Shown here one piece after another: positions 40,499-45,033 of a stretch of 56,455 bases of DNA (the stretch's first letter is position 1; every line of letters starts with the position of its first letter). The notes beneath the pieces were generated by a model. That model had not been told where the DNA came from. It ran no database searches and worked only from the letters and a program-made list of their open reading frames with translations. This DNA is from an uncultured Opitutia bacterium (GTDB lineage: Bacteria; Verrucomicrobiota; Verrucomicrobiia; Opitutales; Opitutaceae). The DNA lies in contig CAIRTK010000027.1 of assembly GCA_903881475.1 (NCBI GenBank), forward strand, positions 1 to 56,455, read 5' to 3'. The translations under genes were made by a program, and so were the position numbers.

Positions 40499-40948
40499 AT
40501 GAAAATCTCCCAACTCTTGTCGCAACGTGAAGGGCTGCTGCAGCAGGCGCGTCTGGCTAACCTGGCCTACGCGTATGCGAAGCTCGAGGAGTTTGACGGT
40601 CGGATCGCCCGCGCGCGGCTTACGGGCGAGGTCAACCTGCTCCAGGCCGATCCCGCGGCCGGCGGATTCTGGCCGATGCTCACGGCCCGGGAAGGCAACC
40701 AGTCGGTGATCGAAGAGCATTTCACGGAGGAGGACGTGACGGAACTGGCCGACATCATCGCGTTCTTCACGGGCGCGACCGAACTCGACCTGACCTTCCG
40801 CATCGAGGACCTGGCCGAGCGGTTCGCCGCCCCGTTGCGCCGCGAACTGGAGCGGGCGGGCGTCGCAGTCAGCACCCCGCCGTCAGTCGCAGAGTCGCCG
40901 GACGGTCCCGGCACCCGGGGCTGCCCGCAGCGGGGCGAAGGGATCTGA
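40499..40948 (+). CDS. Unknown cytoplasmic protein
   Basis: 149 residues beginning MKISQLLSQREGLLQQARLA. Mostly helical and charged with no signal peptide: an N-terminal helix pair, an aromatic-containing segment (GGFWPMLTAREGNQSVIEEH), an acidic helix (TEEDVTELADIIAFFTG) and a C-terminal helix (EDLAERFAAPLRRELERAG). The last 25 residues (PPSVAESPDGPGTRGCPQRG) are low complexity. AAGGA at 40491-40495 precedes the ATG closely. No family recognised. Confidence 0.6.
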   Translation: MKISQLLSQREGLLQQARLANLAYAYAKLEEFDGRIARARLTGEVNLLQADPAAGGFWPMLTAREGNQSVIEEHFTEEDVTELADIIAFFTGATELDLTFRIEDLAERFAAPLRRELERAGVAVSTPPSVAESPDGPGTRGCPQRGEGI

Positions 40949-40963
40949 CGGCAGCGATCGGCG

Positions 40964-41061
40964 GAGGTGGAGCGAGTTGCCCCCAACGCGCTGAGCATCG
41001 CTGTTCATGTTCAATCGCAGCCGGAGCCAAGCCAACGCATTGGGGCAATGCGTTCCACCTC
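40964..41061. repeat. Inverted-repeat element A
   Basis: GAGGTGGAGCGAGTTG (start of 40964-40990) is an imperfect inverted copy of the sequence at 41036-41061, which ends GTTCCACCTC; the right arm also contains the perfect hairpin CGCATTG-GGG-CAATGCG. The left part of the 306-base gap 40949-41254. Confidence 0.65.
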
Positions 41062-41069
41062 GCGAACCG

Positions 41070-41274
41070 CTCAACTGATCAGCAGCAACCAGACGCTGCG
41101 ATCCAGCGGAAGGTGGGCGGGCCCGTCCCGTGCCCGCATGGTGGGCCGGGCGCTCCGTCGCCCGGCTGTAGTGGCACAAACCGGACGGGACGCCCGGCAC
41201 ACTGCTAATCGCTCAAACGCGGGCACGGGACGGGCCCGCCCACCTTGTTATCCCTCAGCTGATCAGCAGCAACC
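41070..41274. mobile_element. MITE-like inverted-repeat element B with flanking 21-base duplication
   Basis: A perfect 28-base inverted repeat, left arm 41110-41137 (begins AAGGTGGGCGGGCCCG) and right arm 41219-41246, encloses 81 bases with a further GCCGGGCG/CGCCCGGC hairpin. It is flanked by a direct repeat of 21 bases (41070-41090 and 41254-41274, 20 of 21 identical) containing TGATCAGCAGCAACC. There is no open reading frame for a transposase. The right copy includes the stop codon of the DUF1826 gene. Confidence 0.6.
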
Positions 41275-41965
41275 GCGGCGGCTGGCCGGGCAGGGTGGCG
41301 GGGGCGCGGTGGATGCACGGCGGGACCGGACTGCCGGGATAGTCGACGGCGATGCGCCAGAGGTGGCCCACGCCAAAGGAAAACAGCCGGGCCGAAGGGG
41401 AGGGCACGTAGTGGAGATCGTAGCTGTGCTCCTTCAGATACCCGAGAAAGCTATCGTCATCCGCACCTCCATAGCTCGCGAGCAACCGGGCGCGGGTCTC
41501 GGGGATATCCACGTGCCGCCGCGCCTCGTCATTGCGCAACCCCTCGCTCGGGGCTCCGTAGTACGTGCACAGCCAGGTATCGGTCTCAATCGTGGCCCGA
41601 TCCGCATGAAACGAGTAGACGTCCGTAGACACTACTTCTGCCGCCTCATCACGCGGATAGCCGTCGATACAGTTGAGCACCGGATCCAAGCCCAGTTCAC
41701 GCAGCCGCCGCTGGTCCTCGATCATCGCGTCAATAGCCACCCGCCCCGCTGCGCTCACGGGCAGAGCCTGCAACCGCGCCTCGTCGATGGTGGCGATTCC
41801 TTCGTCGGCACCGAGCTTGCCCACAACTTCGGCAAAATCACCGGCCAATGTCCGCTCCCAGCAGAGTGCATTGATGCCATTCCCAAACGGCTTCGCCACT
41901 AGCTCATCGAAATTCCTCACCCGTTGGAAGCGAGGATAGTTGGAGGGCAGGACAAAAGGAGTCAC
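41255..41965 (-). CDS. DUF1826 domain protein
   Basis: 236 residues from a GTG at 41965. Conserved DUF1826 blocks: VYSFHADRATIETDTWLCTY, GAPSEGLRNDEARRHVDIP and the C-terminal CIHRAPA. The scattered His/Asp/Cys residues suggest a metal-binding or redox fold, and homologues often occur near zinc-homeostasis genes, but no function is established; no such gene is adjacent here. The last five codons and the stop (LLLIS) lie in a 21-base sequence repeated 184 bases downstream on the other side of an inverted-repeat element. Confidence 0.85.
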   Translation of the reverse strand: MTPFVLPSNYPRFQRVRNFDELVAKPFGNGINALCWERTLAGDFAEVVGKLGADEGIATIDEARLQALPVSAAGRVAIDAMIEDQRRLRELGLDPVLNCIDGYPRDEAAEVVSTDVYSFHADRATIETDTWLCTYYGAPSEGLRNDEARRHVDIPETRARLLASYGGADDDSFLGYLKEHSYDLHYVPSPSARLFSFGVGHLWRIAVDYPGSPVPPCIHRAPATLPGQPPRLLLIS

Positions 41966-44905: not shown

Positions 44906-45033
44906 GGGGCGCGCGGCTGGGGTGAGGGCACCCCGCCCACAACGGGACGGGCCGCAGCGGCCGGGCTGACGAGCGGCATGCCGGTGCGGGGGCTTGCGTT
45001 TGCGGGCGGCGTTTCCTTTTAGTGGTGCTTCCC

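Follow-up and report, generated by a model that had tools for sequence, protein, structure and literature searches.

At the end of a DUF1826 gene, a perfect inverted repeat is bracketed by two near-identical 21-base sequences, and the locus raises the question of whether this is a transposon that makes unusually long target duplications, as an earlier note on the sequence had supposed, or an element of another kind next to a duplication of separate origin. The window, which is the whole stretch of DNA analysed (56,455 nt), comes from a 3.21 Mb draft genome of 83 contigs, and the features that bear on the question are listed below, where a REP is a repetitive extragenic palindrome and a REPIN a pair of REPs in inverted orientation.

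41110..41137, plus strand: left family A REP of 26 nt starting at 41112, head GGTGG, plus two extra bases AA
41219..41246, minus strand: right REP of family A, inverted and identical to the left REP, with head CCACC at 41240-41244
41138..41218: spacer of 81 nt, the first part of which matches the spacer of the L035 copy (contig C60)
41112..41244: REPIN proper, 133 nt head to head
41254..41274, minus strand: gene-proximal 21-mer, the last DUF1826 codons and stop (LLLIS-stop) plus one base
41070..41090, minus strand: gene-distal duplicate of the 21-mer, a 20/21 match, outside the gene
41255..41965, minus strand: DUF1826 gene, PF08856 at 22.9 bits, just above the cut-off of 22
40966..41059: second REPIN, of family B (GGTGGAGCG..)
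40499..40948, plus strand: convergent ORF of 149 aa, without a Pfam match

The two arms, 28 nt each, are 100% complementary, and the direct repeats differ at a single base; the earlier note is confirmed on both points. The element lies 3' of the DUF1826 gene, between it and the convergent ORF, and here the REPINs of families A and B are adjacent, both between the convergent genes. From one 21-mer to the other the spacing is 184 nt. Neither 21-mer abuts an arm: 19 nt separate the left copy from the left arm, and 7 nt the right arm from the right copy. By eye, the family B head stands 10 nt from the distal 21-mer and the family A head 9 nt from the proximal one. Both 21-mers read LLLIS-stop on the minus strand, as had been claimed. 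The gene, whose product ends in RLLLIS, stops inside the proximal copy, while the distal copy, for all that it spells the same ending, lies outside the gene, which ends before it. The DUF1826 gene still ends at its own stop codon, so the insertion has probably done it no harm. The claim that the gene was left intact is consistent with related gene ends, where the LLLIS-stop ending recurs with one 21-mer.

The arms proved to be members of a dispersed repeat family. A search of the genome with 41060-41290 gave at least 112 matches, nearly all of them arm-sized in the best 40 of 78 candidates; among these listed matches, a full-length one occurs only at the window itself. The 25-base arm core GTGGGCGGGCACGTCCCGTGCCCGC has 54 genome matches at no more than 3 mismatches, against 0 for a reversed control, and these occupy 52 places, two palindromic sites being matched on both strands. 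Each arm is itself palindromic, with a hairpin GCGGGCACG-TCC-CGTGCCCGC behind the GGTGG head. Each of the first five positions, which form this head, is kept in 58-61 of 62 arms; a GTAG-like head and many copies are what mark a REP. The loop TCC is present in 60/62 arms. Evidence for the REP hairpin from stem covariation is mixed. At stem pair 7/23 both sides change together, 45 of the 62 arms having G-C and 9 having A-T. Across all nine stem pairs, however, one-sided changes prevail (95), with 12 double changes that are compensatory and 2 further ones; arms shifted by one base account for part of these counts. The window copy has a C-T mismatch in each of its single REP hairpins, and its long doublet hairpin is perfect. 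Family A matches occur in 6 of 38 genomes, this one included, all of the same genus, with one of the six represented by a single site with 3 mismatches. Exact matches in a contig database come from 13 stretches, which may omit the window's own genome, in records titled Opitutaceae, Opitutae or Verrucomicrobia. The sequence GGTGGGCCGGGCGCTCCGTCGCCCGGC within the spacer was considered as a third REP family and rejected, having one genome site at no more than 3 mismatches. A degenerate single REP of family D (22/24) is also present elsewhere in the window, at 44917-44940.

Family A units are arranged largely as the window copy is: 23 of 37 are inverted doublets around a spacer, with their heads outward, and 14 are single REPs. 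At 22 loci both arms have at least 20/26 matches, and in these 22 doublets, a few arms of which are shifted by one base, the two arms differ on average by 3.27, compared with 3.99 after shuffling (163 of 10000 shuffles were as low). The arms are identical in only 2 of the 22, the window copy and L032 (contig C46), and these two also share a variant base, present in each of their arms. Spacers mostly measure 50-64 nt (20 of 27), that of the window being 81 nt, and most are dissimilar, with 7 of 351 pairs reaching 15, the top shuffled score. Some are alike: L034, L047 and L059 form one set, and L042 and L057 another. In three of five aligned pairs (window/L035, L047/L059 and L042/L057), similarity spans arms and spacer and stops on both sides at the outer heads or no more than about 10 nt beyond them. 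In the other two, L034/L059 and L039/L041, the local alignment continues past one head with many gaps, so these pairs do not fix the element border. Thus the inverted repeat belongs to a dispersed REPIN family in which some doublets at separate loci share arms and spacer, and the proposal of a non-autonomous element is supported in this form. Two other kinds of site were seen in the family. At L042 (contig C75) and L057 (contig C46) a family B REPIN sits inside the spacer of the family A element, giving a composite that is alike at the two places. At L053, L055 and L056 the family A site is a single near-perfect palindrome, resembling a REPIN without a spacer; spacer losses of REPINs are mentioned in PMC3116915.

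A hairpin between two convergent genes might also be an immobile signal, a transcription terminator or an mRNA-stabilising structure common to both. The fold is very stable: as RNA the stretch reaches -129.3 kcal/mol, with a z of -9.87 and 0 of 200 shuffles equally good, and this, together with the position between convergent ORFs, speaks for such a role. Rfam at its gathering cut-off gave no match to a known RNA family at the element site. A scan for terminators of the GC-rich hairpin and T run type, covering loops of 3-8 only, gave 0 sites in 40900-41400, and dispersal of the family with shared spacers likewise argues against an immobile signal. We regard it as very improbable that this is what the element is; a terminator or stabiliser role could be secondary to mobility.

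Identifying a matching transposase had been suggested as a check. PF01797 finds two Y1 genes in the genome. No REP was found near one of them, of 338 aa. The other, a 193-aa REP-associated tyrosine transposase (RAYT) on contig C11, lies between perfect inverted family D REPs and scores 90.3 bits with NF047646 (cut-off 80) and, with PF01797, 23.3 bits in one search and 22.6 in another (cut-off 23). On contig C1, a 140-aa RAYT lies between inverted family B REPs and keeps the HUH motif PDHLH and the Tyr; its 59.1 bits with NF047646 and 13.9 bits with PF01797 are both below cut-off. A RAYT on contig C69 has a broken reading frame, and its flanking inverted REPs are GTAG-headed (L196, 448-982); the genes around it are, judged by eye, what we take to be rod-shape genes. 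A profile of 11 such RAYT proteins finds TnpA-REP 4er8 at 3.2e-18. Families A, B and D have the GTGG head in common. RAYTs enclosed by REPs were thus found for the sister families B and D and, in a broken frame, for the GTAG-headed family; for family A, neither the 83-contig draft nor four A-bearing relatives yielded a RAYT with such flanks. The enzyme that moves family A is likely of the Y1/HUH type, related to IS200/IS605.

We then asked how exceptional the 21-base duplication is. Flanking direct repeats were scored in 80 REP and REPIN units, one unit per locus: 37 of family A, 32 of family B (32 loci) and 11 of family D, the last a sample of 11 loci compared with 32 known D matches. The 37 family A units come from 40 loci, L054, L060 and L062 having been dropped because no arm reached 21/26. 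The window copy scores 18, while the other 79 units, 36 of them of family A, score no more than 9. Of 6314 mismatched flank pairs, which served as a chance control, none exceeds 14; the direct repeat in the window is beyond chance. A separate flank test of all 40 family A loci gave the same picture, with only the window above 9. One further locus deserves mention. At L052, a family A doublet at about 918-1071 on contig C1, a 13/15 direct repeat lies next to the element, with gaps of 2 and 1 nt, and a score of at least 9 at such a placement is found in 2 of 6314 control pairs; L052 may be a second, weaker case of a REPIN with duplicated flanks. Copies lacking a flanking duplication, which the earlier note had named as the finding that would speak against it, are thus 79 of the 80 units, with L052 a possible exception. 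Its view that the element characteristically makes an unusually long target duplication is not supported, and we rejected target duplication as a family A trait, leaving L052 as a possible case.

These numbers bear directly on the reading in which the locus is a MITE of the classical sort, its terminal inverted repeats 28 bases long, with a DDE transposase and 21-base target duplications. For DDE-type MITEs, a fixed-length target duplication is expected at most copies. The window copy alone would fit, with its perfect terminal arms and flanking direct repeat, but other copies are without such a duplication, the arms are palindromic REPs that are also found singly (the 14 single units above), and the sister families flank genes for Y1 transposases. 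We consider a DDE-type MITE exceedingly improbable.

A narrower alternative accepts the REPIN and concerns the duplication alone: the 21-base repeat would be a true target duplication, made when the REPIN, together with the 7 and 19 bases beside it, entered through a staggered break or gap, followed by fill-in. Several observations favour it. The 21-mer has exactly two sites in the genome at no more than 3 mismatches, and the likeness of the two copies ends, by eye, at the 21-mer borders. At related gene ends (12 loci in 11 genomes, L077 and L087 sharing one) it is single in 10 of 12 and double in none; of the two loci without a 21-mer at 16/21 or better, L077 reaches the contig end and L081 has other codons. 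The DNA downstream in the window is, by eye, absent from all of these related gene ends, which are therefore not strict empty sites. The repeat at L052, so close to its element, also fits. Against a true duplication stand the low scores of the other 79 units and the 7 and 19 bases that separate the repeats from the arms; moreover, larger target duplications are said not to be produced by IS200/IS605 members (PMC2817692). Among the matches listed (the best 40 of 78), none was seen that could have supplied the 7 and 19 bases between arms and 21-mers, and a 64-base match of 79% on contig C4, reaching into the left flank, was taken as chance. We judge a true target duplication unlikely, while giving it real weight. 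A variant ties the duplication to the enzyme: insertion driven by a RAYT would sometimes pass through a staggered, filled-in intermediate and leave a long duplication, the window and perhaps L052 being traces of this, and the spacings of 9 and 10 nt between the two REPINs and the two 21-mers would reflect a preference for the 21-mer sequence. This we find distinctly doubtful.

We conclude that the element is, very probably, a family A REPIN, presumably moved by a RAYT and normally without target duplication, and that the 21-base repeat most likely goes back to something that happened once, at this locus. In such movement, a RAYT, which is an HUH single-strand nuclease, would act in trans and carry the doublet as a single-stranded hairpin, and a normal family A insertion would leave no target duplication. 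The 21-base duplication most likely arose in another way, for example by a template switch or a repair event at the hairpin, and would be a local one-off event rather than the standard footprint of the family. REP clusters have been reported with flanking DNA segments reiterated alongside the repeats (PMC3733652), so a small duplication beside a REPIN is no surprise. A single copy whose duplication is exceptional can be mistaken for a transposon that makes long target duplications.

How does this family compare with known systems? The REPIN was described by Bertels and Rainey (2011; PMC3116915) as a REP doublet forming a hairpin. Family A resembles it in having two inverted REPs around a spacer, with movement of the doublet via a RAYT proposed, in having singlets and in being able to fold into one long hairpin; it differs in that the host is an Opitutaceae-like draft genome, a cognate family A RAYT was not found and one copy has a 21-base flanking repeat. 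The REPtron, with its TnpA-REP/RAYT, is similar (PMC6006769, PMC8266576) in that families B and D border a Y1 gene with inverted REPs; unlike it, family A gave no such arrangement. The spread of REPs is still called poorly understood in PMC8266576, and loci with a REPIN between duplicated host bases are thus worth listing. A likeness within the same phylum is GTAG-20 of Opitutus terrae (Di Nocera 2013; PMC3733652), whose head-head dimers are mostly 20-100 bp apart and whose repeats lie mainly between unidirectional and convergent genes; the likeness to family A drawn here is one of arrangement. A REPIN is an ordinary, already known kind of element, to which the present family adds, with modest weight, a GTGG-headed representative from an Opitutaceae-like genome, in which some REPINs are nested.
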